A DNA stretch of 64,000 bases, taken from contig JBAIAA010000783.1 in assembly GCA_037893245.1 (NCBI GenBank), positions 1,178,001 through 1,242,000 of the forward strand, in the 5' to 3' direction. Below are positions 2,044 through 58,463 of the stretch, piece after piece. A program made the translations under genes and the position numbers. Below the pieces are notes generated by a model. That model did not search any database. It saw only the letters and a list, made by a program, of their open reading frames with translations, and was not told the origin of the DNA. The stretch's first letter is position 1. The number at the start of each line of letters is the position of its first letter. The DNA comes from Crossaster papposus. Taxonomy: Eukaryota; Echinodermata; Asteroidea; Velatida; Solasteridae.

Positions 2044-3365
2044 TATAGACAGGGCCAAGACCAGGGAAAACTAAGGGTTTTTCCTGTCAAGGTTTTCTCA
2101 ACGGTTTCATCATCCTGAACCTCAACCATTTGATAATAGCTTGGGGGCCACCCTGATTTTTGCCCCTAATTCAAAATGGCCGCCAAAATCCAAAATGGCC
2201 GCTAATTTTACATACATTACATATATACTGCTAATTACATTTAATATCAACGTTTTTTTTAGTGATTCTGTCATCTTGAATGTACACCCATTGAAGTTAG
2301 CTCCAGAGCCACCCAGAATTTGGCCTCAAATCTAAGATGGCTGCCAAAATCTAAAATGGCTGCCAAAATTACTCTAATCAGGTTTATACTGCTTCTTGTT
2401 TTTTTCTGTCAGATTTGTTTTTAGTGATTCCGTCATTCTAAGCCCAAGGCCTTTAAGATTAGTCTGGGGAATACCCAGGATTTATCGTCCAATCCAAGAT
2501 GGCTGTCAAAATGGCTGTCAAAATGGCTGTCAAAATGGCTGCCAAAATGGCCATCAAAAGCATCTTACTTAAATTTAAAGTACATCTTCGTTTTGTCCTG
2601 GTAAAGTTCACTACAGTTGGTTTCATTGTGGCGTTCCGAAACTAAGCCTTTTGGAATTAACTTGTGGCTACCCAATATTTGTCCGCCCTAATCCAAAATG
2701 GCTACCAACATTACCTTAATCAGATTTAAACGGTCTCTTATTTATCCCCCATAATTTAGTAAAGGACCTGGCTCAGACATGTATGTAGATTATTTAGGAG
2801 AGGATAACTCAAGTGTTCTAGGCTGATTTGACCCCAAGGAACAACTTGGGATGTGTTCCAAAATCTTTATCCGGGGCGAACAGCCCGGAAATGACCACGC
2901 CCTTTTTTAAATGACCATGCCCTATTTTTGGGAAGTGCTACTTCCGACATAGCTGTATCTTCTAAACCGTTGGAGCTAGACATTTTATGATGTGCTCAAG
3001 ATGTTCATTTTATATTTTACAAGAACATTTCTAAAAACCGTTCGGTCAACTTATTACCATACAAATAAATACATACACCGGGAATTTCCATATATATTTA
3101 TTAATTAAACTTTCCAAACTTAGAGCAAAGTTAGAACATTTGTGTCATCTACTAGAGTTTAACTGACAATTATGAGCAGTGTTCATTCAGTGATGGGTTC
3201 TTACACCAATCACCTCCCTTGCATTTGCAGTATTTGCAACAATGGATCCAAGCAACTCGCCTTCTGGTTTTGAGATCACAATCTCAGGGACTAATGAATT
3301 ACCCCTTTTTACAAAACCATAAGACGCAGCATTCAAAATCAAGGTTCGCTTTCCTCTTCTTCCCC
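2044..3365 (+). repeat. left arm of fold-back element
   Basis: Inverse of the right arm, including the outer GACAGGGCC end, the AAAATGGCTGTC tandem block at 2495-2560, the GGGCGAACAGCCCGGAAA block near 2875, and the innermost part, which encodes on the minus strand the C-terminal piece of the element's ORF. Confidence 0.7.
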
Positions 3366-3489
3366 TCTCTTTATTCTTGATGCTGTCCTTTCTGTAAGTG
3401 TCAAAGGACATGGTGACCTTTGGCGATCTTCCATCAGCAAAACTGCTTTCCAAGCATTCTATGTTGAGTGGCGCACCACCAGATAACAA
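3187..3489 (-). pseudogene. fragment of transposon-associated ORF (left, inverted copy)
   Basis: This minus-strand frame reads from a middle piece (SFADGRSPKVTMSFDTYRKD) directly into TLILNAASYGFVKRGN and KPEGELLGSIV. The same C-terminal piece occurs on the plus strand at 4107-4256, so the element holds two inverted, differently deleted copies of one ORF. In the last part the original frame appears to be the neighbouring one, which reads CCKYCKCKGG, a cysteine-rich tail. I recognise the family as an uncharacterised transposon-linked protein; function unknown. Confidence 0.6.
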
Positions 3490-3539
3490 GACACAAAACC
3501 TCTATACCTAGTATATCACCAAAGGCATGGATTGTGTCA

Positions 3540-5907: not shown

Positions 5908-6392
5908 CAAGGTCTCGAAGTAAAAGTAGATTCCGGTAGAAAAGTTGGATTGTTTGTTATTGAATTATTCAAATTGTGCCCAAAACAAAACATTTTCCAG
6001 GGGTTTACAGACGCGGTTACAAAAAGGGGAAAAGACAGATTTTGGTTGAGTGAATAAATGGCATATATACATGTATACAAGTTTACATTTATTCCTGGAT
6101 ACGTCTATTGTCCCCGTTGTGAAAGCAGGCGCAAAATAATATCGCTTCAGCCGTTTATTAGCGATGTTTCCATCCATAGGCCGGTAACTCAACGAAATGT
6201 AACGAAGCATCACGAATGGCATAGAGTCGCTAGTCGAAGCCAGCCGAAGCCTCCCGAAGCCTCGGTGTTCCAAAACTTTAAGGCTTGTCGCGGAGCCTCA
6301 TGAAGACGAAGCCTCATAAATTGAAGCCGGAGCCGAAGCCAAAGCCTGAAGGTTTGGAAAAGGGCCCTCGAAGCGCACCATTGAAACTCGTA
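5908..6392. other. intergenic, GAAGCC-rich stretch
   Basis: Contains a cluster of GAAGCC/GAAGCCTC words at 6236-6345, repeated in loose tandem. No gene seen. Confidence 0.5.
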
Positions 6393-6446
6393 CAGTCAGT
6401 CCGCAGCGCACTGAAAAGCCGTTTATTTTATGTGCGCTTTATGCAT

Positions 6447-7748
6447 TAGCCTCTGTCATGAAATGACGAAAATCAACCGAAGAGGGCGTTTTGCGGAAAT
6501 TTGTCAATATGGCTTCCGAGCTCTCGCGTAAGACTAACGTAAGTAGCTATACCATGGAAGAAAGACAACAGATAGTTAGTGAATTGCGGGGAAATACTTA
6601 ATAAAAAATGGCCAATCATAAAACTAGATTTTCTTTCCTGCACTTGAAAAGACCCGCCGTGTATTTATGTTCCTTAGAAAACCGGTTAGGCCCAATTAAC
6701 ATTTAAACAAAACAAAAAATTCAGTGGCACTGAACTGAAGCTTTATTTGAAAGCCATATTTGAATGCCATACAGTAAACAAATTCTGGGGCCAATTCATA
6801 CAACTTGATACATGTACAAGCAATATTATTTTTGTATTTTTAATTATTTTTTGACATCAAATATAAATTTGGGGCTTTACACACAAGCACTTGGTTCACA
6901 TAATTACTATATGGACGTTAAACCTTAACATTCCTGATCCTGCAATGTTAATTTAAAAACCAGTTTTAAATACTGTCACATTAAATGTACAGACGCCTGT
7001 GAAATCTAGTAATATTTTACCCTTTTATTGACTGAAACCTGACATTAAAAGAAGTTCGTAAATATTAAACTTGAATTTTTCAAGAATTATTCAATTGCGC
7101 CACGACCAATTAGGGAGCACTCGGTCGATTCAGTTGTGTGCACAATTTCTGGTCGCCACCGTTTTGGTTTTTTTTTCGGACTAAGCTTACACCTAAATTG
7201 TTAACAGAGGGTAAATAGCAAGCATTAATAACATTAACATGGTAAGGGAACAATGAATTTGCAGTTTGTCAACAAAGAAGTATGGCAACATTGCATGAGG
7301 AAAGTCGGCCCAACATTTACTGTTTATAAACAATGTAAACGTCGAAGTACAGCTATAGCTCTCCCAAAGGTCGAGTTGTCTCAACGGGCGAGTTGTCTCA
7401 ACGGGCGAGTTGTCTCAACGGTCGACTTGTCCCGAGTCGAGTTGTCTCAACGGTCGACTTGTCTGACATCCGCTAGCTACGCACGTACGTATATAGCGCA
7501 CTGAGCACGCTTTCACAAACTGACCATTTTTTCAGTCGCTGTTTCTTTCTCTTTCGTAATTTTACGGTTTTGGATGACATTTAACCTTATGCCTACGGTT
7601 TATCCTCTCGAAATAACCACAGCCTTTAGAGCTCCGGCGTAAGCCATAAAGTTCTGACATCGACGACACACGTGTTGCTGTTGGTAAGCGCCGCCATTTT
7701 GACAATTTTCCGCGCGTTGACCTTTTAGAAAGGTCATGACAGAGGCTA
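6447..7748. mobile_element. nested TIR element inside copy 1
   Basis: Ends are TAGCCTCTGTCATGA and the inverse TCATGACAGAGGCTA. The related copy at 30286-32609 shows the empty site (GCATGGCAC read on the complementary strand near 32553), so insertion duplicated at most the dinucleotide AT. The interior has no recognisable coding sequence. Confidence 0.65.
7369..7465. repeat. 17 bp minisatellite, CGAGTTGTCTCAACGGG type
   Basis: About five tandem copies, alternating between CGAGTTGTCTCAACGGG and CGACTTGTC variants, within the nested element. Confidence 0.75.
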
Positions 7749-34212: not shown

Positions 34213-35618
34213 CTTAGACCGAGTTACTGGCCTCTAGTTATCGCTTGTTTAACATTTGGACATCATCTGGCGCATCTACTAGAGGCCGAGGACGTTAACG
34301 CGTTAAATTCCAAATCTCTTAAATGTGATTCAAAAAGTCGCCCAAATCCACACAAATACCTAACAAAATACCTTAAAATCACCTAAACAGCCTTCCATGT
34401 GTGTCCAAGTACGTCGGGGTGGTCTTCGGGGGTACTCACGATCAATTATTTGCTTGCAAATCAAGGAAATTCGACCCAGTATTCGAGCGACTACTGCACA
34501 GTTGCTGTTCACAACCAGGAGAGAATGTGACGTGCGCGCGCATCATATCGTGGATGTCAGTGACGTAACAGGTCAAAGTGTATCAACCGGTGGTAAACAA
34601 CAAGCGCGCGGCGCAGCGACTGTTTTATGTCATGGCACAAGCTGTACGGTGGCTGCGTGCTGATGAGGAGACACCAATCGCTCTCGGGCGGGGATAGCGC
34701 ACAATGCTTGCAATCGCGAGGAGTATGACAATGCAAAATACTAATGTTTATTATAATCATAACAAAACAATAATAATAATTTCGGTTAAGTGAAGTGAAA
34801 TGGTAAATTATAATGCCTTCCTAGATGCGGATCCGCGATTGCAAGCATTGTGCGCTATCCCCGCCCGAGAGCGATTGGTGTCTCCTCATTAGCACGCAGC
34901 CACCGTACAGCTTGTGCCATGACATAAAACAGTCGCTGCACCGCGCGCTTGTTGTTTACCACCGGTCGATACACTTTGACCTGTTACGTCACTGACATCC
35001 ACGATATGTTGCGCGCGCACGTCACATTCTCTCCTAGTTGTGAACAGCAACTGTGCAGTAGTCGCTCGAATACTGGGTCGAATTTCCTTGATTTGCAAGC
35101 AAATAATTGATCGTGAGTACCCCCGAAGACCACCCCGACGTACTTGGACACACATGGAAGGCTGTTTAGGTGATTTTAAGGTATTTTGTTAGGTATTTGT
35201 GTGGATTTGGGCGACTTTTTGAATCACATTTAAAGGTAGTATACACCATTTGCAGATATCGAAAATATTTACTACCGAATTATTAAGAAATATCTTACTC
35301 ATTTGAAAGCCGGACGGCGATCGCGAAAAAACAAAGATAACATAAGAATAACTGCCGAACGCCGGTTGAAAACAAACGCTGTTTTTCGTGCTTTTCCCGG
35401 AATCCATGATTGTAAAACTTTGGACAGATCAGTTAAACGATATTTATTATGAAATACAACCCCCCAAATCTACCCATTAATGATAATTCAATCAATTAAC
35501 AATGGTGTATCCTACCTTTAAGAGATTTGGAATTTAACGCGTTAACGTCCTGTAGCGCCAGATGATGTCCAAATGTTAAACAAGCGATAACTACTAGAGG
35601 CCAGTAACTCGGTCTAAG
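34213..35618. repeat. large inverted repeat, about 505 bp arms, one arm carrying a MITE
   Basis: The left arm 34213-34718 and right arm 34834-35618 are near-identical inverses; the 88-residue reading frame at 34397-34663 recurs on the other strand at 34889-35155 with one residue changed. The right arm is longer only because a 284 bp MITE is inserted in it. The spacer is about 115 bp. The arms do not encode a recognised protein. Confidence 0.85.
35234..35517. mobile_element. TTAA MITE inserted in the right arm, with empty site in the left arm
   Basis: Starts AGGTAGTATACACCATTTGC and ends AATGGTGTATCCTACCT. The flanks are TTAA at 35230-35233 and 35518-35521. The left arm has the unoccupied site with a single TTAA at 34319-34322 (CTCTTAAATG), which proves the 4 bp duplication and precise ends. 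Confidence 0.92.
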
Positions 35619-36591: not shown

Positions 36592-37040
36592 GGTGGTGGG
36601 GGGGGGGGGGGGGGGCGGGTGGTGGGGGGGGGGGGCGGGTGGTGGGGGGGGGGGGGCGGGTGGTGGTGGGGGGGGGGGGGGGGGGGCGGGTGGTGGTGGG
36701 GGGGGGGGGGGGGGGGCGGGTGGTGGTGGGGAGGGGGGCCAGGTGGTGGTGGGGGGAGGCCGGGGGGGGGGGGCGGGTGGTGGTGGGGGGGGGCGGGTGG
36801 TGGTGGGGGGGGGGGCGGGTGGTGGTGGGGGGGGGGGGGGGCGGGTGGTGGTGGGGAGGGGGGCCGGGTGGTGGTGGGGGGAGGCCGGGGGGGGGGGGCG
36901 GGTGGTGGTGGGGGGGGGGGGCGGGTGGTGGTGGGGGGGGGGGGGGGCGGGTGGTGGTGGGGAGGGGGGCCGGGTGGTGGTGGGGGGAGGCCGGGGGGGG
37001 GGGGGGGGGGGGGGCGGGTGGTGGTGGGGGGGGGGGGGTT
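36592..37040 (+). repeat. 450 bp G-run microsatellite (GGGCGGGTGGTGGTGGG type)
   Basis: Almost entirely G with short GGTGGTGG and GGCGGG interruptions in a loose 40-60 bp higher-order pattern, including a repeated GAGGGGGGCC(A/G)GGTGG block. The open frames through it (Gly/Trp-rich on plus, Pro-rich on minus) are compositional artefacts. Potential G-quadruplex tract. Confidence 0.9.
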
Positions 37041-38710: not shown

Positions 38711-38716
38711 ACCGCT

Positions 38717-39822
38717 TCGCGCGGCACCTGCTAGCTGGGTGGAATCGTAACTTATAGATACACCTTGTTGACGTCTTAAAAACACAATGGATTGTATGAC
38801 AAACAAATCGCGAAACTTAGCGAGTAGAGTACCAGCTAGAAAGTATTTCGAGCGCACGAAATTATTTCGAGCTCACGAACATATATTCCTGGAGCGCACG
38901 AAGTCATTTCGTGGCCACTAAAACATTTCGAGCTCACGAAATAAGTTATTTTGAGTGCACGAAATAAAATACTCAAATTATTTCGTAACGGTGATTTTTA
39001 TTCGTCATATGTCCCTTTAGGGGCTCCGTAGAATACCATCGACTCTGAATAACAAACAATCTTTGTAAAAATATTCCCGACTTCCGAACTAATAATACTA
39101 AATAGGCAGTCCATCTTCGTTTGCATGCTGCCTGCGTCTCGTGATTTTTTAACAGGAATCGTACGGGAAACAATACGAACCACTTCGGGATTTCTGATTT
39201 ACATCATCGTGAAAATCGTGATTAAAAAAACCAACAGGCCGGCCACCTGACAGTGCGCCCTCAACTGACGTAATGCAGTCACGTTTCTAAATTGCATATT
39301 CATATCCACCATCGCCATACAATTTCGCGACATTTTTGCACGATCAAAGTTGAAATTGAGGCAATAGCGATATGTTTCGGAGTGTTTTGAGACAGATAAT
39401 GTTGTAATATTTAAGTATCGACGATGTGAAGCAAAGACATTTGCCCAAAAAGCAACACGAAAGGAATAAATCATTTGTTAACGTTCCCAACCTGCGACTG
39501 AAACGTGGTCGACGCGCACGAATTCGAACCCGAAAACGAAGCCCGCGCTCAACTGGTACTAGTATGTTTACTCCGCAATAACCAAGGAAGTATAAATCGG
39601 GGCACCAGCTCAAATAACACATGGGACGGGGCCGCCCAATGGCGAATAACAAACTCGGCACCAACTCGGCCACCGCGCAAGCAAGGCGGATACAATTAAT
39701 TTGCGAAGGCTTCGTGTAACGCATGTAGCCGCCGCTTAATCGCAAACAGCCAACAATTTGGTAACCGGGTTACGGTAGTACGATTTCGGGAAGGCTTCGG
39801 CCCGAACTCCGGGCAGCGATTT
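38717..39822 (-). mobile_element. diverged, truncated Helitron-like copy (possible founder)
   Basis: Matches the array units over about 1.1 kb with visibly more substitutions and a small extra segment near 39560. Its 3' hairpin is cut (only GCCGCGCGAAGCGG survives on the minus strand), and the 5' part beyond the GGCCCGAACTCCGG block is missing. Confidence 0.75.
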
Positions 39823-40979: not shown

Positions 40980-41546
40980 TGGGTATGTTTCAAATCGCGA
41001 TGTGGTCAAAACGTTGCATCTATCTTCGGACCCACTGGAGATAACCATCAGATTTCACATCCAAGACCTCACAAATATGGTCATACATGCGAGGTTGGAG
41101 AAGGAAATCATTTGCATTAGTCCTTATTATATTTTGTTTTAATTTTCTTTTTAATTTTCAGATTGTTGCTAAACAAGCGGGGTGAATAGGGACAGACTAT
41201 ACAGATTTATATAGAGATTGACATCTGTGGTATGATTCTACAGGGCATAGAATCGGAAAGACTCCTATTAACTTCTATTTTGTTCCCATATTTGTCATCT
41301 GTTTCAGATTTTTTCCTTGCCAGAGTTTGTTTGCGTTTGTTCTCACTTCTTTGTTTTTTTCCTTACCCCCCCCCCCCCTCCCCCACATTACTCCTATTAA
41401 TTTTATACCTCTTTGTTAGTTTTCCTTTTGATCTTCACCCTGGACCCCCTCCTTTTTGTTCCCCACCCTAATTCACACCCCTTTGTCCCTCCATTTGTCG
41501 ATTGTTCTACTGGACTGGGTGCTTTTTCGTTTGTGTTTCTTTTGCC

Positions 41547-43080
41547 GCACGAAGTCATTTCGTGGCCACGACAACATTTCGAGCTCACGAAATAAGTTAT
41601 TTTGAGTGCACGAAATAAAATACTCAAATTATTTCGTAACGGTGATTTGTATTCGTCATATGTCCCTTTAGGGGCTCCGTAGAATACCATCGACTCTGAA
41701 TAACAAACAATCTTTGTAAAAATACTTCCCGACTTCCGAACTAATAATACTCAATAGGCAGTTCATCTTTGCTTGCATGCTGCCTGCGTCTCGTGATTTT
41801 TTAACATGAATCGTACGGGAAACAATACGAACCACTTCGGGGTTTCTGATTTACGTCGTTACGATTGAAAAAAACCAACAGACCGGCCGTCTGACAGTGC
41901 GCCCTCAACTGACGTAAGGCAGTCCCGTTTCTAAATTGAATATTCATATCCACGATAGGCCTTACAATTTCGCGACATTTTTCAACGATAAAAGTTAAAA
42001 TTGAGGCAATAGCGATACGTTTCGGAGTGTTTTTAGAGTGATAATGTTGTAATATTTAAGTATTGACAATGTGAAAGGAAGAAATTTTGCCAGAAGGCAA
42101 CACGAAAGGAATAAATCATTGTTTTTACGTTCCAAAACTGTGACTACAAAATGGTCGACGCGCAGGAATTCGGAGGCAAAGCCGAAGCCGAAACGTAGTC
42201 ACGTTTCTAAATTGCATATTCATATCCACCATCGCCATACAATTTCGCGACATTTTTGCACGATCAAAGTTGAAATTGAGGCAATAGCGATATGTTTCGG
42301 AGTGTTTTGAGACAGATAATGTTGTAATATTTAAGTATCGACAATGTGAAGCAACGAAATTTGCCCAAAAGGCAACACGAAAGGAATAAATCATTTTTTA
42401 ACGTTCCAAGCCTGTGACTGCAATGTGGTCGACGCGCACGAAATTCAAAGCCGAAAACGAAGCTGGCGCTCAAACTCCGCAATAACCAATGGAGTATAAA
42501 GGTCAAATAACACGGGACGGGCCGCCCAATCGCGAACAACAAACTCGGCACCAACTCGGCCACCGCGCAAGCAAGGCGGATACAATTAATTTGCGAAGGC
42601 TTCGCGTAACACATGTAGCCGCCGCTTAATCGCAAACGGCCAACAATTCGGCAACCGAGTTACGGCAGTACGATTTCGGGAAGGCTTCGGCCCGAACTCC
42701 GGTCAAGGACAATGCAAAAATAACGCAATAGTTCGCGCAAAAAGGCCCGCAGACATCGACAGGCAATCGAAAAGCGATTACGCGTTTATCGGTAACGTCC
42801 GTTTCTTTTAAATCTCACCACGGACGAATACGATTTTTTTTAAATCTTATTCCCCGGGGGATTCCCCGGGGGATTCCCCGTCGCGAACGGTCCGGCACCC
42901 CGCCGCACCGACGCCGGCGGCACGCGCGCGCGGCGACAAGTCGCCCGACTAAAAGCCAACATGGCGCCAACCACGCGCCAAGATGGCGCGGCCCTGTGTT
43001 CCAAGATGGCGCGGCCCTGCGTTCCAAGATGGCGGCGCCCCGGGACAAGATGGCGCATTTAACATCTTTTATAGTATAGA
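41547..43080 (-). mobile_element. Helitron-like unit, type A, 3' end missing
   Basis: Begins within the unit at GCACGAAGTCATTTCG, lacking about 197 bases including the hairpin. It corresponds exactly to 46201-47734, offset 4654. A 270 bp internal duplication (41925-42195 against 42197-42460) distinguishes type A. Confidence 0.8.
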
Positions 43081-44547
43081 CTAGCAGGATGCCGCGCTTC
43101 GCGCGGCACCTGCTAGCTGGGTGAAATCGTAACTTATAGATACACCTTGTTGACGTCTTAAAAACATAATGGATTGTATGACAAACAAATCGCGAAACTT
43201 AGCGAGTAGAGTACCAGCTAGAAAGTATTTCGAGCGCACGAAATTATTTCGAGCTCACGAACAGATATTCTTGGAGCGCAAGAAGTCATTTCGTGGCCAC
43301 GACAACATTTCGAGCTCACGAAATAAGTTATTTTGAGTGCACGAAATAAAATACTCAAATTATTTCGTAACGGTGATTTTTATTCGTCATATGTCCCTTT
43401 AGGGGCTCCGTAGAAGTACCATCGAGTCTGAATAACAAACAATCTTTGTAAAAATACTTCCCGACTTTCCAACTAATAATACTCAATAGGCAGTCCATCT
43501 TCGCTTGCATGCTGCCTGCGTCTCGTGATTTTTAACAGGAATCGTACGGGAAACAATACGAACGAACCACTTCGGGATTTCTGTTTTACATCATCGTGAA
43601 AATCGTGATTAAAAAACCCAACAGGCCGGCCGTCTGACAGTGCGCCCTCAACAGACGTAATGCAGTCACGTTTCTAATTTGCATATTCATATCCACCATC
43701 GCCATACAATTTCGCGACATTTTTGCACGATCAAAGTTGAAATTGAGGCAATAGCGATATGTTTCGGAGTGTTTTGAGACAGATAATGTTGTAATATTTA
43801 AGTATCGACAATGTGAAGCAACGAAATTTGCCCAAAAGGCAACACGAAAGGAATAAATCATTTTTTAACGTTCCAAGCCTGTGACTGCAATGTGGTCGAC
43901 GCGCAGGAAATTCAAAGCCGAAAACGAAGCTGGCGCTCAAACTCCGCAATAACCAATGGAGTATAAAGGTCAAATAACACGGGACGGGCCGCCCAATCGC
44001 GAACAACAAACTCGGCACCAACTCGGCCACCGCGCAAGCAAGGCGGATACAATTAATTTGCGAAGGCTTCGCGTAACGCATGTAGCCGCCGCTTAATCGC
44101 AAACGGCCAACAATTCGGCAACCGAGTTACGGCAGTACGATTTCGGGAAGGCTTCGGCCCGAACTCCGGTCAAGGACAATGCAAAAATAACGCAATAGTT
44201 CGCGCAAAAAGGCCCGCAGACATCGACAGGCAATCGAAAAGCGATTACGCGTTTATCGGTAACGTCCGTTTCTTTTAAATCTCACCACGGACGAATACGA
44301 TTTGTTTTAAATCTTATTCCCCGGGGGATTCCCCGGGGGATTCCCCGTCGCGAACGGTCCGGCACCCCGCCGCACCGACGCCGGTGGCACACGCGCGCGG
44401 CGACAAGTCGCCCGACCAAAAGCCAACATGGCGCCAACCATGCGCCAAGATGGCGCGGCCCTGTGTTCCAAGATGGCGCGGCCCTGCGTTCCAAGATGGC
44501 GGCGCCCAGGGACAAGATGGCGCATTTGTCATCTTTTATAGTATAGA
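43081..44547 (-). mobile_element. Helitron-like unit, type B, 1467 bp
   Basis: Complete TC...CTAG unit without the internal duplication. Near its 5' end it has four AAGATGGCG words and two GGGGGATTCCCC blocks. Confidence 0.85.
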
Positions 44548-46003
44548 CTAGCAGGATGCCGCGCTTCGCGCGGCACCTGCTAGCTGGATGAAATCGTAAC
44601 TTATAGATACACCTTGTTGACGTCTTAAAAACATAATGGATTGTATGACAAACAAATCGCCAAACTTAGCGAGTAGAGTACCAGCTAGAAAGTATTTCGA
44701 GCGCACAAAATTATTTCGAGCTCACGAACAGATATTCTTGGAGCGCACGAAGTCATTTCGTGGCCACGACAACATTTCGAGCTCACGAAATAAGTTATTG
44801 TGAGTGCACGAAATAAAATACTCAAATTATTTCGTAACGGTGATTTTTATTCGTCATATGTCCCTTTAGGGGCTCCGTAGAATACCATCGACTCTGAATA
44901 ACAAACAATCTTTGTAAAAATACTTCCCGACTTCCGAACTAATAATACTCAATAGGCAGTTCATCTTTGCTTGCATGCTGCCTGCGTCTCGTGATTTTTT
45001 AACAGGAATCGTACGGGAAACAATACGAACCACTTCGGGATTTCTGAGTTTACATCATCGTGAAAATCCTGATTAAAAAACCCAACAGGCCGGCCATCTG
45101 ACAGTGCGCCCTCAACTGACGTAATACAGTCACGTTTCTAAATTGCATATTCATATCCACCATCGCCATACAATTTCGCGACTTTTTTGCACGATCAAAG
45201 TTGAAATTGAGGCAATAGCGATATGTTTCGGAGTGTTTTGAGACAGATAATGTTGTAATATTTAAGTATCGACAATGTGAAGCAAAGAAATTTGCCCAAA
45301 AGGCAACACGAAAGGAATAAATCATTTTTCAACGTTCCAAGCCTGTGACTGCAATGTGGTCGACGCGCACGAAATTCGAAGCCGAAAACGAAGCTGGCGC
45401 TCAAACTCCGCAATAACCAAGGGAGTATAAAGCTCAAATAACACGTGACGGGGCCGCCCAATGGCGAATAACAAACTCGGCACCAACTCGGCCACCGCGC
45501 AAGCAAGACGGATACAATCAATTTGCGAAGGCTTCGCGTAACGCATGTAGCCGCCGCTTAATCGCAAACAGCCAACAATTCGGCAACCGAGTTACGGTAG
45601 TACGATTTCGGGAAGGCTTCGGCCCAAACTCCGAGCAAGGACAATGCAAAAAAACCGCAATAGTTCACGCAAAAAGGCCCACAGACATCAACAGGCAATC
45701 GAAAAGCGATTACGCGTTTATCGGTAACGTCCGTTTCTTTTAAATCTCACTTCGGACGAATACGTGTTTTTTTTTAAATCTTATTCCCCGGGGGATTCCC
45801 CGGGGATTCCCCGTCGCGAACGATCCGGCACCCCGCCGCACCGACGCCGGCGGCACACGCGCGCGGCGACAAGTCGCCCGACGAGTCGCCCGACCAAAAG
45901 CCAACATGGCGCCAACCACGCGCCAAGATGGCGCGGCCCTGTGTTTCCAAGATGGCGGCGCCCAGGGACAAGATGGCGAATTTAACATCTTTTATAGTAT
46001 AGA
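44548..46003 (-). mobile_element. Helitron-like unit, type C, 1456 bp
   Basis: Complete unit. Distinguished by GCTGGATGAAATCG at the 3' side, CGCCAAACTT, and a duplicated GTCGCCCGAC near the 5' side; it has one fewer AAGATGGCGCGGCC block. Confidence 0.85.
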
Positions 46004-47734
46004 CTAGCAGGATGCCGCGCTTCGCGCGGCACCTGCTAGCTGGGTGAAATCGTAACTTATAGATACACCTTGTTGACGTCTTAAAAACACAATGGATTGT
46101 ATGACAAACAAATCGCGAAACTTAGCGAGTAGAGTACCAGCTAGAAAGTATTTCGAGCGCACGAAATTATTTCGAGCTCACGAACAGATATTCTTGGAGC
46201 GCACGAAGTCATTTCGTGGCCACGACAACATTTCGAGCTCACGAAATAAGTTATTTTGAGTGCACGAAATAAAATACTCAAATTATTTCGTAACGGTGAT
46301 TTGTATTCGTCATATGTCCCTTTAGGGGCTCCGTAGAATACCATCGACTCTGAATAACAAACAATCTTTGTAAAAATACTTCCCGACTTCCGAACTAATA
46401 ATACTCAATAGGCAGTTCATCTTTGCTTGCATGCTGCCTGCGTCTCGTGATTTTTTAACATGAATCGTACGGGAAACAATACGAACCACTTCGGGGTTTC
46501 TGATTTACGTCGTTACGATTGAAAAAAACCAACAGACCGGCCGTCTGACAGTGCGCCCTCAACTGACGTAAGGCAGTCCCGTTTCTAAATTGAATATTCA
46601 TATCCACGATAGGCCTTACAATTTCGCGACATTTTTCAACGATAAAAGTTAAAATTGAGGCAATAGCGATACGTTTCGGAGTGTTTTTAGAGAGATAATG
46701 TTGTAATATTTAAGTATTGACAATGTGAAAGGAAGAAATTTTGCCAGAAGGCAACACGAAAGGAATAAATCATTGTTTTTACGTTCCAAAACTGTGACTA
46801 CAAAATGGTCGACGCGCAGGAATTCGGAGGCAAAGCCGAAGCCGAAACGTAGTCACGTTTCTAAATTGCATATTCATATCCACCATCGCCATACAATTTC
46901 GCGACATTTTTGCACGATCAAAGTTGAAATTGAGGCAATAGCGATATGTTTCGGAGTGTTTTGAGACAGATAATGTTGTAATATTTAAGTATCGACAATG
47001 TGAAGCAACGAAATTTGCCCAAAAGGCAACACGAAAGGAATAAATCATTTTTTAACGTTCCAAGCCTGTGACTGCAATGTGGTCGACGCGCACGAAATTC
47101 AAAGCCGAAAACGAAGCTGGCGCTCAAACTCCGCAATAACCAATGGAGTATAAAGGTCAAATAACACGGGACGGGCCGCCCAATCGCGAACAACAAACTC
47201 GGCACCAACTCGGCCACCGCGCAAGCAAGGCGGATACAATTAATTTGCGAAGGCTTCGCGTAACACATGTAGCCGCCGCTTAATCGCAAACGGCCAACAA
47301 TTCGGCAACCGAGTTACGGCAGTACGATTTCGGGAAGGCTTCGGCCCGAACTCCGGTCAAGGACAATGCAAAAATAACGCAATAGTTCGCGCAAAAAGGC
47401 CCGCAGACATCGACAGGCAATCGAAAAGCGATTACGCGTTTATCGGTAACGTCCGTTTCTTTTAAATCTCACCACGGACGAATACGATTTTTTTTAAATC
47501 TTATTCCCCGGGGGATTCCCCGGGGGATTCCCCGTCGCGAACGGTCCGGCACCCCGCCGCACCGACGCCGGCGGCACGCGCGCGCGGCGACAAGTCGCCC
47601 GACTAAAAGCCAACATGGCGCCAACCACGCGCCAAGATGGCGCGGCCCTGTGTTCCAAGATGGCGCGGCCCTGCGTTCCAAGATGGCGGCGCCCCGGGAC
47701 AAGATGGCGCATTTAACATCTTTTATAGTATAGA
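46004..47734 (-). mobile_element. Helitron-like unit, type A, 1731 bp
   Basis: Complete unit with the 270 bp internal duplication. Nearly identical to the other A units (one difference seen near 46691: GAGAGATAAT against GAGTGATAAT at 42037). Confidence 0.85.
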
Positions 47735-49201
47735 CTAGCAGGATGCCGCGCTTCGCGCGGCACCTGCTAGCTGGGTGAAATCGTAACTTATAGATACACC
47801 TTGTTGACGTCTTAAAAACATAATGGATTGTATGACAAACAAATCGCGAAACTTAGCGAGTAGAGTACCAGCTAGAAAGTATTTCGAGCGCACGAAATTA
47901 TTTCGAGCTCACGAACAGATATTCTTGGAGCGCAAGAAGTCATTTCGTGGCCACGACAACATTTCGAGCTCACGAAATAAGTTATTTTGAGTGCACGAAA
48001 TAAAATACTCAAATTATTTCGTAACGGTGATTTTTATTCGTCATATGTCCCTTTAGGGGCTCCGTAGAAGTACCATCGAGTCTGAATAACAAACAATCTT
48101 TGTAAAAATACTTCCCGACTTTCCAACTAATAATACTCAATAGGCAGTCCATCTTCGCTTGCATGCTGCCTGCGTCTCGTGATTTTTAACAGGAATCGTA
48201 CGGGAAACAATACGAACGAACCACTTCGGGATTTCTGTTTTACATCATCGTGAAAATCGTGATTAAAAAACCCAACAGGCCGGCCGTCTGACAGTGCGCC
48301 CTCAACAGACGTAATGCAGTCACGTTTCTAATTTGCATATTCATATCCACCATCGCCATACAATTTCGCGACATTTTTGCACGATCAAAGTTGAAATTGA
48401 GGCAATAGCGATATGTTTCGGAGTGTTTTGAGACAGATAATGTTGTAATATTTAAGTATCGACAATGTGAAGCAACGAAATTTGCCCAAAAGGCAACACG
48501 AAAGGAATAAATCATTTTTTAACGTTCCAAGCCTGTGACTGCAATGTGGTCGACGCGCAGGAAATTCAAAGCCGAAAACGAAGCTGGCGCTCAAACTCCG
48601 CAATAACCAATGGAGTATAAAGGTCAAATAACACGGGACGGGCCGCCCAATCGCGAACAACAAACTCGGCACCAACTCGGCCACCGCGCAAGCAAGGCGG
48701 ATACAATTAATTTGCGAAGGCTTCGCGTAACGCATGTAGCCGCCGCTTAATCGCAAACGGCCAACAATTCGGCAACCGAGTTACGGCAGTACGATTTCGG
48801 GAAGGCTTCGGCCCGAACTCCGGTCAAGGACAATGCAAAAATAACGCAATAGTTCGCGCAAAAAGGCCCGCAGACATCGACAGGCAATCGAAAAGCGATT
48901 ACGCGTTTATCGGTAACGTCCGTTTCTTTTAAATCTCACCACGGACGAATACGATTTGTTTTAAATCTTATTCCCCGGGGGATTCCCCGGGGGATTCCCC
49001 GTCGCGAACGGTCCGGCACCCCGCCGCACCGACGCCGGTGGCACACGCGCGCGGCGACAAGTCGCCCGACCAAAAGCCAACATGGCGCCAACCATGCGCC
49101 AAGATGGCGCGGCCCTGTGTTCCAAGATGGCGCGGCCCTGCGTTCCAAGATGGCGGCGCCCAGGGACAAGATGGCGCATTTGTCATCTTTTATAGTATAG
49201 A
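47735..49201 (-). mobile_element. Helitron-like unit, type B, 1467 bp
   Basis: Complete unit, indistinguishable by eye from 43081-44547 over long stretches. Confidence 0.85.
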
Positions 49202-50666
49202 CTAGCAGGATGCCGCGCTTCGCGCGGCACCTGCTAGCTGGATGAAATCGTAACTTATAGATACACCTTGTTGACGTCTTAAAAACATAATGGATTGTAT
49301 GACAAACAAATCGCCAAACTTAGCGAGTAGAGTACCAGCTAGAAAGTATTTCGAGCGCACAAAATTATTTCGAGCTCACGAACAGATATTCTTGGAGCGC
49401 ACGAAGTCATTTCGTGGCCACGACAACATTTCGAGCTCACGAAATAAGTTATTGTGAGTGCACGAAATAAAATACTCAAATTATTTCGTAACGGTGATTT
49501 TTATTCGTCATATGTCCCTTTAGGGGCTCCGTAGAATACCATCGACTCTGAATAACAAACAATCTTTGTAAAAATACTTCCCGACTTCCGAACTAATAAT
49601 ACTCAATAGGCAGTTCATCTTTGCTTGCATGCTGCCTGCGTCTCGTGATTTTTTAACAGGAATCGTACGGGAAACAATACGAACCACTTCGGGATTTCTG
49701 AGTTTACATCATCGTGAAAATCCTGATTAAAAAACCCAACAGGCCGGCCATCTGACAGTGCGCCCTCAACTGACGTAATACAGTCACGTTTCTAAATTGC
49801 ATATTCATATCCACCATCGCCATACAATTTCGCGACTTTTTTGCACGATCAAAGTTGAAATTGAGGCAATAGCGATATGTTTCGGAGTGTTTTGAGACAG
49901 ATAATGTTGTAATATTTAAGTATCGACAATGTGAAGCAAAGAAATTTGCCCAAAAGGCAACACGAAAGGAATAAATCATTTTTCAACGTTCCAAGCCTGT
50001 GACTGCAATGTGGTCGACGCGCACGAAATTCGAAGCCGAAAACGAAGCTGGCGCTCAAACTCCGCAATAACCAAGGGAGTATAAAGCTCAAATAACACGT
50101 GACGGGGCCGCCCAATGGCGAATAACAAACTCGGCACCAACTCGGCCACCGCGCAAGCAAGACGGATACAATCAATTTGCGAAGGCTTCGCGTAACGCAT
50201 GTAGCCGCCGCTTAATCGCAAACAGCCAACAATTCGGCAACCGAGTTACGGTAGTACGATTTCGGGAAGGCTTCGGCCCGAACTCCGGTCAAGGACAATG
50301 CAAAAATAACGCAATAGTTCGCGCAAAAAGGCCCGCAGACATCGACAGGCAATCGAAAAGCGATTACGCGTTTATCGGTAACGTCCGTTTCTTTTAAATC
50401 TCACCACGGACGAATACGATTTTTTTTAAATCTTATTCCCCGGGGGATTCCCCGGGGGATTCCCCGTCGCGAACGGTCCGGCACCCCGCCGCACCGACGC
50501 CGGCGGCACGCGCGCGCGGCGACAAGTCGCCCGACTAAAAGCCAACATGGCGCCAACCACGCGCCAAGATGGCGCGGCCCTGTGTTCCAAGATGGCGCGG
50601 CCCTGCGTTCCAAGATGGCGGCGCCCCGGGACAAGATGGCGCATTTAACATCTTTTATAGTATAGA
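49202..50666 (-). mobile_element. chimeric Helitron-like unit (C joined to A/B type), 1465 bp
   Basis: The left part carries type C markers (GCTGGATGAAATCG, CGCCAAACTT, GGAGTATAAAGCTCAAATAA). From about 50280 it carries the type A markers (GGCCCGAACTCCGGTCAAGG, ACGATTTTTTTTAAATC). This unit exists only in this period and accounts for the extra 1465 bp. Confidence 0.8.
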
Positions 50667-52122
50667 CTAGCAGGATGCCGCGCTTCGCGCGGCACCTGCT
50701 AGCTGGGTGAAATCGTAACTTATAGATACACCTTGTTGACGTCTTAAAAACATAATGGATTGTATGACAAACAAATCGCCAAACTTAGCGAGTAGAGTAC
50801 CAGCTAGAAAGTATTTCGAGCGCACAAAATTATTTCGAGCTCACGAACAGATATTCTTGGAGCGCACGAAGTCATTTCGTGGCCACGACAACATTTCGAG
50901 CTCACGAAATAAGTTATTGTGAGTGCACGAAATAAAATACTCAAATTATTTCGTAACGGTGATTTTTATTCGTCATATGTCCCTTTAGGGGCTCCGTAGA
51001 ATACCATCGACTCTGAATAACAAACAATCTTTGTAAAAATACTTCCCGACTTCCGAACTAATAATACTCAATAGGCAGTTCATCTTTGCTTGCATGCTGC
51101 CTGCGTCTCGTGATTTTTTAACAGGAATCGTACGGGAAACAATACGAACCACTTCGGGATTTCTGAGTTTACATCATCGTGAAAATCCTGATTAAAAAAC
51201 CCAACAGGCCGGCCATCTGACAGTGCGCCCTCAACTGACGTAATACAGTCACGTTTCTAAATTGCATATTCATATCCACCATCGCCATACAATTTCGCGA
51301 CTTTTTTGCACGATCAAAGTTGAAATTGAGGCAATAGCGATATGTTTCGGAGTGTTTTGAGACAGATAATGTTGTAATATTTAAGTATCGACAATGTGAA
51401 GCAAAGAAATTTGCCCAAAAGGCAACACGAAAGGAATAAATCATTTTTCAACGTTCCAAGCCTGTGACTGCAATGTGGTCGACGCGCACGAAATTCGAAG
51501 CCGAAAACGAAGCTGGCGCTCAAACTCCGCAATAACCAAGGGAGTATAAAGCTCAAATAACACGTGACGGGGCCGCCCAATGGCGAATAACAAACTCGGC
51601 ACCAACTCGGCCACCGCGCAAGCAAGACGGATACAATCAATTTGCGAAGGCTTCGCGTAACGCATGTAGCCGCCGCTTAATCGCAAACAGCCAACAATTC
51701 GGCAACCGAGTTACGGTAGTACGATTTCGGGAAGGCTTCGGCCCAAACTCCGAGCAAGGACAATGCAAAAAAACCGCAATAGTTCACGCAAAAAGGCCCA
51801 CAGACATCAACAGGCAATCGAAAAGCGATTACGCGTTTATCGGTAACGTCCGTTTCTTTTAAATCTCACTTCGGACGAATACGTGTTTTTTTTTAAATCT
51901 TATTCCCCGGGGGATTCCCCGGGGATTCCCCGTCGCGAACGATCCGGCACCCCGCCGCACCGACGCCGGCGGCACACGCGCGCGGCGACAAGTCGCCCGA
52001 CGAGTCGCCCGACCAAAAGCCAACATGGCGCCAACCACGCGCCAAGATGGCGCGGCCCTGTGTTTCCAAGATGGCGGCGCCCAGGGACAAGATGGCGAAT
52101 TTAACATCTTTTATAGTATAGA
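50667..52122 (-). mobile_element. Helitron-like unit, type C with B-like first 60-100 bp
   Basis: Begins GCTGGGTGAAATCG like types A and B, then switches to type C (CGCCAAACTT onward), ending 1456 bp later with the C-type 5' side. Confidence 0.8.
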
Positions 52123-53853
52123 CTAGCAGGATGCCGCGCTTCGCGCGGCACCTGCTAGCTGGGTGAAATCGTAACTTATAGATACACCTTGTTGACGTCT
52201 TAAAAACACAATGGATTGTATGACAAACAAATCGCGAAACTTAGCGAGTAGAGTACCAGCTAGAAAGTATTTCGAGCGCACGAAATTATTTCGAGCTCAC
52301 GAACAGATATTCTTGGAGCGCACGAAGTCATTTCGTGGCCACGACAACATTTCGAGCTCACGAAATAAGTTATTTTGAGTGCACGAAATAAAATACTCAA
52401 ATTATTTCGTAACGGTGATTTGTATTCGTCATATGTCCCTTTAGGGGCTCCGTAGAATACCATCGACTCTGAATAACAAACAATCTTTGTAAAAATACTT
52501 CCCGACTTCCGAACTAATAATACTCAATAGGCAGTTCATCTTTGCTTGCATGCTGCCTGCGTCTCGTGATTTTTTAACATGAATCGTACGGGAAACAATA
52601 CGAACCACTTCGGGGTTTCTGATTTACGTCGTTACGATTGAAAAAAACCAACAGACCGGCCGTCTGACAGTGCGCCCTCAACTGACGTAAGGCAGTCCCG
52701 TTTCTAAATTGAATATTCATATCCACGATAGGCCTTACAATTTCGCGACATTTTTCAACGATAAAAGTTAAAATTGAGGCAATAGCGATACGTTTCGGAG
52801 TGTTTTTAGAGAGATAATGTTGTAATATTTAAGTATTGACAATGTGAAAGGAAGAAATTTTGCCAGAAGGCAACACGAAAGGAATAAATCATTGTTTTTA
52901 CGTTCCAAAACTGTGACTACAAAATGGTCGACGCGCAGGAATTCGGAGGCAAAGCCGAAGCCGAAACGTAGTCACGTTTCTAAATTGCATATTCATATCC
53001 ACCATCGCCATACAATTTCGCGACATTTTTGCACGATCAAAGTTGAAATTGAGGCAATAGCGATATGTTTCGGAGTGTTTTGAGACAGATAATGTTGTAA
53101 TATTTAAGTATCGACAATGTGAAGCAACGAAATTTGCCCAAAAGGCAACACGAAAGGAATAAATCATTTTTTAACGTTCCAAGCCTGTGACTGCAATGTG
53201 GTCGACGCGCACGAAATTCAAAGCCGAAAACGAAGCTGGCGCTCAAACTCCGCAATAACCAATGGAGTATAAAGGTCAAATAACACGGGACGGGCCGCCC
53301 AATCGCGAACAACAAACTCGGCACCAACTCGGCCACCGCGCAAGCAAGGCGGATACAATTAATTTGCGAAGGCTTCGCGTAACACATGTAGCCGCCGCTT
53401 AATCGCAAACGGCCAACAATTCGGCAACCGAGTTACGGCAGTACGATTTCGGGAAGGCTTCGGCCCGAACTCCGGTCAAGGACAATGCAAAAATAACGCA
53501 ATAGTTCGCGCAAAAAGGCCCGCAGACATCGACAGGCAATCGAAAAGCGATTACGCGTTTATCGGTAACGTCCGTTTCTTTTAAATCTCACCACGGACGA
53601 ATACGATTTTTTTTAAATCTTATTCCCCGGGGGATTCCCCGGGGGATTCCCCGTCGCGAACGGTCCGGCACCCCGCCGCACCGACGCCGGCGGCACGCGC
53701 GCGCGGCGACAAGTCGCCCGACTAAAAGCCAACATGGCGCCAACCACGCGCCAAGATGGCGCGGCCCTGTGTTCCAAGATGGCGCGGCCCTGCGTTCCAA
53801 GATGGCGGCGCCCCGGGACAAGATGGCGCATTTAACATCTTTTATAGTATAGA
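52123..53853 (-). mobile_element. Helitron-like unit, type A, 1731 bp
   Basis: Complete, matching 46004-47734 at an offset of 6119. Confidence 0.85.
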
Positions 53854-55320
53854 CTAGCAGGATGCCGCGCTTCGCGCGGCACCTGCTAGCTGGGTGAAAT
53901 CGTAACTTATAGATACACCTTGTTGACGTCTTAAAAACATAATGGATTGTATGACAAACAAATCGCGAAACTTAGCGAGTAGAGTACCAGCTAGAAAGTA
54001 TTTCGAGCGCACGAAATTATTTCGAGCTCACGAACAGATATTCTTGGAGCGCAAGAAGTCATTTCGTGGCCACGACAACATTTCGAGCTCACGAAATAAG
54101 TTATTTTGAGTGCACGAAATAAAATACTCAAATTATTTCGTAACGGTGATTTTTATTCGTCATATGTCCCTTTAGGGGCTCCGTAGAAGTACCATCGAGT
54201 CTGAATAACAAACAATCTTTGTAAAAATACTTCCCGACTTTCCAACTAATAATACTCAATAGGCAGTCCATCTTCGCTTGCATGCTGCCTGCGTCTCGTG
54301 ATTTTTAACAGGAATCGTACGGGAAACAATACGAACGAACCACTTCGGGATTTCTGTTTTACATCATCGTGAAAATCGTGATTAAAAAACCCAACAGGCC
54401 GGCCGTCTGACAGTGCGCCCTCAACAGACGTAATGCAGTCACGTTTCTAATTTGCATATTCATATCCACCATCGCCATACAATTTCGCGACATTTTTGCA
54501 CGATCAAAGTTGAAATTGAGGCAATAGCGATATGTTTCGGAGTGTTTTGAGACAGATAATGTTGTAATATTTAAGTATCGACAATGTGAAGCAACGAAAT
54601 TTGCCCAAAAGGCAACACGAAAGGAATAAATCATTTTTTAACGTTCCAAGCCTGTGACTGCAATGTGGTCGACGCGCAGAAAATTCAAAGCCGAAAACGA
54701 AGCTGGCGCTCAAACTCCGCAATAACCAATGGAGTATAAAGGTCAAATAACACGGGACGGGCCGCCCAATCGCGAACAACAAACTCGGCACCAACTCGGC
54801 CACCGCGCAAGCAAGGCGGATACAATTAATTTGCGAAGGCTTCGCGTAACGCATGTAGCCGCCGCTTAATCGCAAACGGCCAACAATTCGGCAACCGAGT
54901 TACGGCAGTACGATTTCGGGAAGGCTTCGGCCCGAACTCCGGTCAAGGACAATGCAAAAATAACGCAATAGTTCGCGCAAAAAGGCCCGCAGACATCGAC
55001 AGGCAATCGAAAAGCGATTACGCGTTTATCGGTAACGTCCGTTTCTTTTAAATCTCACCACGGACGAATACGATTTGTTTTAAATCTTATTCCCCGGGGG
55101 ATTCCCCGGGGGATTCCCCGTCGCGAACGGTCCGGCACCCCGCCGCACCGACGCCGGTGGCACACGCGCGCGGCGACAAGTCGCCCGACCAAAAGCCAAC
55201 ATGGCGCCAACCATGCGCCAAGATGGCGCGGCCCTGTGTTCCAAGATGGCGCGGCCCTGCGTTCCAAGATGGCGGCGCCCAGGGACAAGATGGCGCATTT
55301 GTCATCTTTTATAGTATAGA
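53854..55320 (-). mobile_element. Helitron-like unit, type B, 1467 bp
   Basis: Complete; one visible change from the other B units is GCGCAGAAAATTC near 54675. Confidence 0.85.
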
Positions 55321-56776
55321 CTAGCAGGATGCCGCGCTTCGCGCGGCACCTGCTAGCTGGATGAAATCGTAACTTATAGATACACCTTGTTGACGTCTTA
55401 AAAACATAATGGATTGTATGACAAACAAATCGCCAAACTTAGCGAGTAGAGTACCAGCTAGAAAGTATTTCGAGCGCACAAAATTATTTCGAGCTCACGA
55501 ACAGATATTCTTGGAGCGCACGAAGTCATTTCGTGGCCACGACAACATTTCGAGCTCACGAAATAAGTTATTGTGAGTGCACGAAATAAAATACTCAAAT
55601 TATTTCGTAACGGTGATTTTTATTCGTCATATGTCCCTTTAGGGGCTCCGTAGAATACCATCGACTCTGAATAACAAACAATCTTTGTAAAAATACTTCC
55701 CGACTTCCGAACTAATAATACTCAATAGGCAGTTCATCTTTGCTTGCATGCTGCCTGCGTCTCGTGATTTTTTAACAGGAATCGTACGGGAAACAATACG
55801 AACCACTTCGGGATTTCTGAGTTTACATCATCGTGAAAATCCTGATTAAAAAACCCAACAGGCCGGCCATCTGACAGTGCGCCCTCAACTGACGTAATAC
55901 AGTCACGTTTCTAAATTGCATATTCATATCCACCATCGCCATACAATTTCGCGACTTTTTTGCACGATCAAAGTTGAAATTGAGGCAATAGCGATATGTT
56001 TCGGAGTGTTTTGAGACAGATAATGTTGTAATATTTAAGTATCGACAATGTGAAGCAAAGAAATTTGCCCAAAAGGCAACACGAAAGGAATAAATCATTT
56101 TTCAACGTTCCAAGCCTGTGACTGCAATGTGGTCGACGCGCACGAAATTCGAAGCCGAAAACGAAGCTGGCGCTCAAACTCCGCAATAACCAAGGGAGTA
56201 TAAAGCTCAAATAACACGTGACGGGGCCGCCCAATGGCGAATAACAAACTCGGCACCAACTCGGCCACCGCGCAAGCAAGACGGATACAATCAATTTGCG
56301 AAGGCTTCGCGTAACGCATGTAGCCGCCGCTTAATCGCAAACAGCCAACAATTCGGCAACCGAGTTACGGTAGTACGATTTCGGGAAGGCTTCGGCCCAA
56401 ACTCCGAGCAAGGACAATGCAAAAAAACCGCAATAGTTCACGCAAAAAGGCCCACAGACATCAACAGGCAATCGAAAAGCGATTACGCGTTTATCGGTAA
56501 CGTCCGTTTCTTTTAAATCTCACTTCGGACGAATACGTGTTTTTTTTTAAATCTTATTCCCCGGGGGATTCCCCGGGGATTCCCCGTCGCGAACGATCCG
56601 GCACCCCGCCGCACCGACGCCGGCGGCACACGCGCGCGGCGACAAGTCGCCCGACGAGTCGCCCGACCAAAAGCCAACATGGCGCCAACCACGCGCCAAG
56701 ATGGCGCGGCCCTGTGTTTCCAAGATGGCGGCGCCCAGGGACAAGATGGCGAATTTAACATCTTTTATAGTATAGA
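55321..56776 (-). mobile_element. Helitron-like unit, type C, 1456 bp
   Basis: Complete, matching 44548-46003. Confidence 0.85.
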
Positions 56777-58463
56777 CTAGCAGGATGCCGCGCTTCGCGC
56801 GGCACCTGCTAGCTGGGTGAAATCGTAACTTATAGATACACCTTGTTGACGTCTTAAAAACACAATGGATTGTATGACAAACAAATCGCGAAACTTAGCG
56901 AGTAGAGTACCAGCTAGAAAGTATTTCGAGCGCACGAAATTATTTCGAGCTCACGAACAGATATTCTTGGAGCGCACGAAGTCATTTCGTGGCCACGACA
57001 ACATTTCGAGCTCACGAAATAAGTTATTTTGAGTGCACGAAATAAAATACTCAAATTATTTCGTAACGGTGATTTGTATTCGTCATATGTCCCTTTAGGG
57101 GCTCCGTAGAATACCATCGACTCTGAATAACAAACAATTTTTGTAAAAATACTTCCCGACTTCCGAACTAATAATACTCAATAGGCAGTTCATCTTTGCT
57201 TGCATGCTGCCTGCGTCTCGTGATTTTTTAACATGAATCGTACGGGAAACAATACGAACCACTTCGGGGTTTCTGATTTACGTCGTTACGATTGAAAAAA
57301 ACCAACAGACCGGCCGTCTGACAGTGCGCCCTCAACTGACGTAAGGCAGTCCCGTTTCTAAATTGAATATTCATATCCACGATAGGCCTTACAATTTCGC
57401 GACATTTTTCAACGATAAAAGTTAAAATTGAGGCAATAGCGATACGTTTCGGAGTGTTTTTAGAGAGATAATGTTGTAATATTTAAGTATTGACAATGTG
57501 AAAGGAAGAAATTTTGCCAGAAGGCAACACGAAAGGAATAAATCATTGTTTTTACGTTCCAAAACTGTGACTACAAAATGGTCGACGCGCAGGAATTCGG
57601 AGGCAAAGCCGAAGCCGAAACGTAGTCACGTTTCTAAATTGCATATTCATATCCACCATCGCCATACAATTTCGCGACATTTTGCACGATCAAAGTTGAA
57701 ATTGAGGCAATAGCGATATGTTTCGGAGTGTTTTGAGACAGATAATGTTGTAATATTTAAGTATCGACAATGTGAAGCAACGAAATTTGCCCAAAAGGCA
57801 ACACGAAAGGAATAAATCATTTTTTAACGTTCCAAGCCTGTGACTGCAATGTGGTCGACGCGCACAAAATTCAAAGCCGAAAACGAAGCTGGCGCTCAAA
57901 CTCCGCAATAACCAATGGAGTATAAAGGTCAAATAACACGGGACGGGCCGCCCAATCGCGAACAACAAACTCGGCACCAACTCGGCCACCGCGCAAGCAA
58001 GGCGGATACAATTAATTTGCGAAGGCTTCGCGTAACGCATGTAGCCGCCGCTTAATCGCAAACGGCCAACAATTCGGCAACCGAGTTACGGCAGTACGAT
58101 TTCGGGAAGGCTTCGGCCCGAACTCCGGTCAAGGACAATGCAAAAATAACGCAATAGTTCGCGCAAAAAGGCCCGCAGACATCGACAGGCAATCGAAAAG
58201 CGATTACGCGTTTATCGGTAACGTCCGTTTCTTTTAAATCTCACTTCGGACGAATACTTAAATCTTATTCCCCGGGGGATTCCCCGTCGCGAACGATCCG
58301 GCACCCCGCCGCACCGACGCCGGCGGCACACACGCGCGGCGACGAGTCGCCCGACCAAAAGCCAACATGGCGCCAACCACGCGCCAAGATGGCGCGGCCC
58401 TGTGTTCCAAGATGGCGGCGCCCAGGGACAAGATGGCGAATTTAACATCTTTTATAGTATAGA
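56777..58463 (-). mobile_element. terminal Helitron-like unit, type A variant, 1687 bp
   Basis: The 5'-most unit. It lacks one GGGGGATTCCCC block, part of the T tract and one AAGATGGCGCGGCC block, 44 bp in total, and has a few private changes (57139, 57682, 57866). Its 5' TC abuts ordinary sequence (TATATATC) with A immediately before, giving the array's outer 5' boundary. Confidence 0.85.

Follow-up and report, generated by a model that had tools for sequence, protein, structure and literature searches.

Flush Stacking of Helitrons at the 5′ Ends of Resident Helitrons and a Proposed Route from Dispersed Transposon to Satellite

Introduction

Helraiser circles that carry a CTAG-TC join were used as donors, according to excerpts of PMC4778049 and PMC5876387. 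In maize, consecutive insertions were inferred by Du et al. (2008) for a pair of Helitrons of which only the upstream element is found in some lines. The excerpted text (PMC2267711) already names the option that the A|T target consisted of a host A and the T of the resident element, and the lines with the upstream element alone could, for these authors, also be explained by a GT target on the 3′ side. The same excerpts relate that Pritham and Feschotte (2007) expected an A between independent insertions, hence their reading as tandem repeats. For three tandem copies of fungal elements, insertion at the 5′ end or rolling-circle replication is offered in the retrieved passages of PMC5148889. No report of preferential insertion at Helitron left ends was found across the titles, beginnings of abstracts, and passages that were searched.

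Presented here is the analysis of a Helitron array in the window (the whole 64-kb stretch of DNA that was analyzed, C783:1178001-1242000) and of related copies in the Crossaster papposus assembly (1.02 Gb in 1841 contigs). The genome counts are counts of exact matches and may include both haplotypes of one locus.

Results and Discussion

Architecture of the Array

The array lies on the minus strand of the window and runs from 58463 to 41546 (16.9 kb). Its units are as follows, in 5′ to 3′ order.

56777..58463, minus strand: unit C* (5′-most), 1687 bp; host A|TC at 58463; the 5′ ~300 bp are B-like and the remainder is C-like
55321..56776, minus strand: unit B1, 1456 bp
53854..55320, minus strand: unit A1, 1467 bp
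52123..53853, minus strand: unit C1, 1731 bp; an internal segment of ~275 bp is duplicated
50667..52122, minus strand: unit B2, type B
49202..50666, minus strand: unit D, 1465 bp; hybrid, 16 C-type sites and then 35 B-type sites, one switch
47735..49201, minus strand: unit A2, type A
46004..47734, minus strand: unit C2, identical to C1
44548..46003, minus strand: unit B3, identical to B1
43081..44547, minus strand: unit A3, identical to A2
41546..43080, minus strand: C unit cut on its 3′ side, without hairpin or CTAG

The initial annotation had described complete 3′ termini followed without spacer by complete 5′ termini, and all 10 joins in the window are indeed exact CTAG|TC joins (CTAGTCTATACTATAAAA, minus strand; 0.04 matches expected by shuffling). 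The hairpin GCCGCGCGAAGCGCGGC lies upstream of every join at 10 exact minus-strand sites, and the 10 plus-strand matches to it with 3 mismatches are the identical sites read back. The 5′ end of the array at 58463 is complete, with a host A preceding TC (ATATCTTATA|TCTATAC). The description of ~17 kb of intact Helitron ends holds for the 10 joins and fails for the last unit, which is cut at 41546; no CTAG end followed by a host T is present in the window.

The units fall into A, B, C, D, and C* types that are ~96.6-98.9% alike, whereas copies of the same type are 99.93-100% identical and are arranged as a higher-order repeat; the identities were measured on the nine complete units between joins. 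The satellite-like character that had been noted for this array is therefore borne out in the window, where a tandem array with a homogenized higher-order repeat is found. Whole blocks, not single neighbors, are duplicated identically. In unit D, 16 consecutive informative sites match C and the next 35 match B, and this single switch is what unequal exchange would give. In unit C*, the first seven informative sites are B-like and the later ones are C-like except for one.

A separate fragment of the same family is found outside the array.

38713..39815, minus strand: fragment cut at both ends, the 3′ break lying within the hairpin; 93% identical to unit D

Elsewhere in the window, positions 34319-35233 align with their own reverse complement over 915 bp (92%), and a G-rich low-complexity block of ~440 bp occurs at 36598-37038. 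Scans against Rfam and for tRNAs found nothing in the window, and a search of viral contigs with the 5′ end pattern gave 0 matches.

Identification of the Units as Helitrons

The units begin with 5′ TC and end with 3′ CTAG, a form of the Helitron terminus CTRR, and a hairpin is located ~10 nt from the 3′ end, with the terminal CTAG also paired here. The hairpin is extended by a 36-nt palindrome, CTAGCAGG...CCTGCTAG, which includes the terminal CTAG and ends exactly at the junction (for example 56777..56812, minus strand; DNA fold z of -5.84). Among 204 strand-wise matches, the near-palindrome being counted on both strands and a few loci overlapping, the form CTAGCAGG...CCTGCTAG was found 192 times and the compensatory pair CTAGCGGG...CCCGCTAG 8 times.

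Insertion between A and T without target duplication is shown by two empty sites and by the base counts on both sides of the elements. Solo copies with these same ends, which the initial annotation had named as a check of its Helitron assignment, are flanked by A...T in all 10 cases that were read. For two of the 10, the empty sites (GCAGTA^TAAACC and GCAGTA^TATATG) correspond to uninterrupted repeats in the window in which A and T are rejoined.

2306..2492, minus strand: other repeat with the empty A^T site of the solo copy at C52:39498(-)
2126..2337, minus strand: other repeat with the empty A^T site of the solo copy at C113:682259(+)

A Rep/helicase element with the same ends, the second check that had been named, is present at C259:1494232-1505169. 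This element contains an uninterrupted open reading frame of 1832 amino acids that matches PF14214 (3.3e-62) and PIF1 (6.5e-78) in profile searches, and is predicted to be an autonomous RepHel element (Helitron_like_N plus PIF1) with the ends of the short units. The match to the short units reaches 91% over ~900 bp at the 5′ end and 96% over ~850 bp at the 3′ end. Because of these matching ends, the short units are best read as putative non-autonomous derivatives of a RepHel element of the same genome, formed by internal deletion. A short unit lies flush on either side of the C259 element.

Across the genome, 150 scored matches to PF14214 (Helitron_like_N) were obtained from 273 candidates, and none were obtained in 14 control genomes. 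Scores of 171-217 bits were recorded for 14 of the 150; the other 136 score ~124-131 bits, with frames of up to 3470 codons, and are perhaps Helentron-like.

Joins across the Genome

Genome-wide, 655 exact flush CTAG|TC joins were counted. The 100 joins listed fall into 49 groups, of which 24 hold one join, 13 hold two, and 12 hold three or more; the largest group among these holds 9. Exact 5′ ends are preceded by A in 376 cases and by another base in 690, and this other base is G in 97, T in 3, and C in none of the 100 listed. The 3′ CTAG ends are followed by T and then a base other than C in 266 cases, by TC and then a base other than T in 58, and by a base other than T in 4. A preference of the host targets for TC is thus not obvious, TCT hosts being indistinguishable from joins by the 3′ end patterns used.

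Each of the 79 A-preceded 5′ ends listed as far as C119:794859 was assigned the next event found within 3.5 kb, namely a join in 30 cases, a 3′ end followed by T and not C in 17, another A-preceded 5′ end in 4, and nothing in 28. Because the list of joins stops at that position, six later C119 ends were omitted, and the tally is without the 3′ ends followed by TC and then a base other than T.

The initial annotation had argued that independent insertions would leave A|T host bases between copies. This argument is not supported, since a host A and the 5′ T of a resident element already make up the AT target, and spacer-free joins are therefore compatible with independent insertion. Insertion at the 5′ edge of a resident yields A[TC...CTAG][TC..., with nothing between the copies.

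Joins were also sought at the two AT sites that follow within the 5′ end. The patterns for these sites exceed that for the boundary by 4-5 letters and are hence somewhat stricter. The counts at the boundary and these two sites are 655, 25, and 0. The 25 joins at offset 4 (TCTA|TAC) occur at 16 places and have their simplest explanation in insertion into a resident 5′ end; no join at offset 9, the following internal AT, was found genome-wide. Joins in the opposite, head-to-head orientation at the same AT number 0, and long palindromes of this kind may be unstable or misassembled.

Some arrangements were observed beside these counts. Eight offset-4 joins, several of them 3202 bp apart, lie at C549:106209-131882, where block amplification of a nested pair seems to have taken place. 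At L023, a two-unit stack (3130-7078, plus strand) is located within another family-1 unit of opposite orientation. Partial repeats of the 5′ end, 12 bp long (TCTATACTATAA), stand immediately before a full 5′ end at L018, L020, and L051 and in the flank of C95:398224(-).

Relatedness of Neighboring Units

Units were extracted from 20 loci chosen for holding joins and from the window. Cutting required both end patterns, with at most 3 substitutions; decayed units are therefore absent from the set, and one locus, L014, gave none. Two of the 69 extracted units were dropped (start not TCT or TAC), leaving 67 from 19 of the 20 loci and the window. The 38 consecutive pairs were reduced to 32 flush pairs by removal of one offset-4 join and five pairs that are not flush (L013 units 1-2; L016 units 1-2 and 4-5; L020 units 2-3; L023 units 2-3, on opposite strands).

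The 32 flush pairs, all outside the window, have a mean divergence of 0.0419 (median 0.0438), compared with 0.0484 (median 0.0470) for 2092 pairs from different loci, or 0.0497 (median 0.0477) for the 1522 such pairs without the window. A mean as low as that of the flush pairs was reached in 49 of 5000 shuffles; with all 38 consecutive pairs, the count is 219 of 5000. Flush neighbors are nearly as different from each other as from copies elsewhere, with a small excess of likeness. This excess is carried in part by three pairs, two of which differ by less than 1% (L011, 0.59%; L012, 0.81%) and the third by 1.03% (L026 units 2-3). The remaining 29 pairs differ by more than 1.03%, and their closer relatives are at other loci. 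The nearest relative is within the same array for 6 of 57 units (2.2 expected). Flush occupation of a resident 5′ TC by the CTAG of another, usually not closely related copy is very frequent.

An order in which the 5′-most unit is the youngest was seen in 20 of the 32 flush pairs (p 0.22). Among consecutive pairs it was seen in 24 of 41 (p 0.35), and among sets in 12 of 18 (p 0.14). All three results lie in the expected direction and none is significant; at some loci the array does not begin with the first unit extracted.

These divergences bear on the origin that the initial annotation had favored, in which the array arose in one step, either by rolling-circle replication that ran past the terminator or by capture of a multimeric circle of one element. 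The exact CTAG-TC joins, the count of 0 head-to-head joins, and the Helraiser circles with the same join (in the excerpts of PMC4778049 and PMC5876387) agree with such an origin, as do the few alike flush neighbors and the slight overall likeness above shuffled pairs. Neighbors in a concatemer of one element would be near-identical at origin, whereas 2 of the 32 flush pairs differ by less than 1%. The joins to a second family (below) and to a full RepHel element, and the duplication of whole blocks in the window, also argue against this origin. It is largely unsupported by the mostly diverged neighbors and the joins to another family, is disfavored for most joins, and is unlikely as the source of the array.

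Joins at the 5′ Ends of a Second Helitron Family

A second family is represented by a predicted RepHel-coding element at C17:883866-870507(-), with frames of 1102 and 560 codons, that begins TCTATACTATTAATCC. Collinearity with the short units (family 1) at the 5′ end extends over no more than the first 10 bases; a 16-nt stretch, GCATGGTTGGCGCCAT, was identified by eye in both at different distances from the end. At the 3′ end the two families share 94 bp at 93%.

The 5′ ends of family 2 that are preceded by A, G, or T number 113, and the preceding base is A in 64, G in 26, and T in 10 of the 100 listed. CTAG was found upstream in all 20 of the 26 G-preceded ends that were read. At six diagnostic sites, for which the family-2 3′ reference is one fully linked element so that the test leans on one sequence, 16 of these 20 upstream ends are family 1 throughout. 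Two more (L064 and L075) depart from family 1 at the farthest site alone, which makes 18 of 20 essentially of family-1 type; L067 is truncated, and L063 is a mixture in which the sites closest to the join are in the family-2 state. Two of the six remaining G-preceded ends (C7 and C17) are flush and lie within L011 and L016, where the full upstream units keep the family-1 type up to their ends, with the exception of site -87, which is variable within family 1. The 14 upstream units examined on family-2 ends form ~10 groups at ~1.5%, two of them (L084 and L087) aligning poorly to family 1 in that stretch. Eight joins follow the CCCGCTAG form of the 3′ end. Flush occupation by CTAG ends is likewise seen at 5′ ends of family 2. 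At C877:832645-832687, a gap of 5 bp, with one base unread, separates a family-1 3′ end from the family-2 5′ end that follows.

Homologous recombination of circles with resident copies, or fusion of circles before integration, would also explain exact head-to-tail joins, and mosaic units do exist among those extracted. Such recombination would put the tail of family 2 itself before a family-2 5′ end, and this was seen in 1 of 20 cases (L063). The other evidence against it is the family-1 type up to CTAG of 18 of 20 heterojunctions and of both full units (L011 and L016), together with the collinearity of the families over the first 10 bases only at the 5′ end, compared with ~94 bp shared at the 3′ end. 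Recombination of circles is accordingly disfavored and appears quite unlikely.

Composite Movement and Assembly

A few stacks formed once might have moved as composites or been copied with their flanks. Certain neighbor pairs recur (6 against 2.5 expected; 48 of 1000 shuffles as high): a C-type unit followed by a ~1880-bp type is found at L009, L010, L022, and L025, several of the eight offset-4 joins at C549 are 3202 bp apart, and a 5′ flank is common to L024 and L022. Against this, first and second units can differ in age (0.17% against 1.7% when L022 is compared with L010), and many kinds of upstream unit occur on family-2 ends, so that a composite origin is very unlikely. The recurring neighbor order and the mosaic units imply additional roles for exchange and perhaps for joint movement. 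Repeats are hard to assemble and some loci may be two haplotypes, but assembly error is scarcely credible, since the 655 joins are spread over many contigs among the 100 listed, and in 5 of 20 loci (L009, L017, L021, L025, and L028) the whole stack lies in one contig with flanks unlike the other fetched loci. Rolling-circle concatemers, circle recombination, composite movement, and assembly error were each rejected as the main cause.

Proposed Mechanism

The array is probably best read as the product of strand-specific integration at resident 5′ ends, followed in the window by unequal exchange. The Y2 transposase would accept the resident 5′ terminus (A|TC, its nick site at initiation) as an integration target. 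The resident A|TC would be cut as in initiation and the ends swapped with those of the incoming circle, such that the CTAG of the circle would be joined to the resident TC and the host A to the incoming TC. A|TC is regenerated at the 5′ edge of such a product, and stacks can therefore grow. Later unequal exchange between units may have given hybrids such as unit D and multiplied blocks, which would appear as the near-identical higher-order repeat.

More generally, we lean toward the view that Helitron transposase may home to Helitron left ends as a preferred, strand-specific target, even in a family collinear over just the first ten bases. Each insertion would rebuild the target, and stacks would accrete mostly unrelated copies, including before RepHel elements, and seed satellites. 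Accretion followed by unequal exchange would provide a stepwise path from dispersed transposon to satellite.

Comparison with Known Systems

Tandem Helitrons were already known, and the scale and the evidence for targeting are the addition made here. Stacking is not common to all Helitrons, to judge from the excerpts of PMC13286980, in which inverse PCR on wheat genomic DNA gave no tandem copies of Xuan1. The tandem Helitrons of plant centromeres (Xiong et al., 2016, as cited in passages of PMC5876387, PMC5148889, and PMC7348941) likewise form arrays; those arrays are described there as often truncated and centromeric, whereas two-ended units in short arrays on many contigs are found here. Self-insertion and three tandem copies are reported for Helitrons of Fusarium and Metarhizium in the retrieved part of PMC5148889, where the elements are non-canonical and the cases few, in contrast to the canonical elements of this genome.

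The tandem Helitrons of the Myotis bat (Pritham and Feschotte, 2007, as related in PMC2267711) have perfect head-to-tail joins, as here, and the expectation of an intervening A fails for insertion at a resident 5′ edge. In the maize pair of Du et al. (2008), two different Helitrons are likewise joined at CTAG|TC; the excerpts of PMC2267711 describe one pair, compared with the 655 joins, the test with a second family, and the controls at internal sites presented here. Support for rolling-circle transposition has been drawn from exact head-to-tail joins (PMC5876387, in the part retrieved), whereas most of the joins described here look like separate insertions at resident left ends. A different origin is thus offered for tandem Helitrons, with a concrete target rule that is testable in existing transposase assays.
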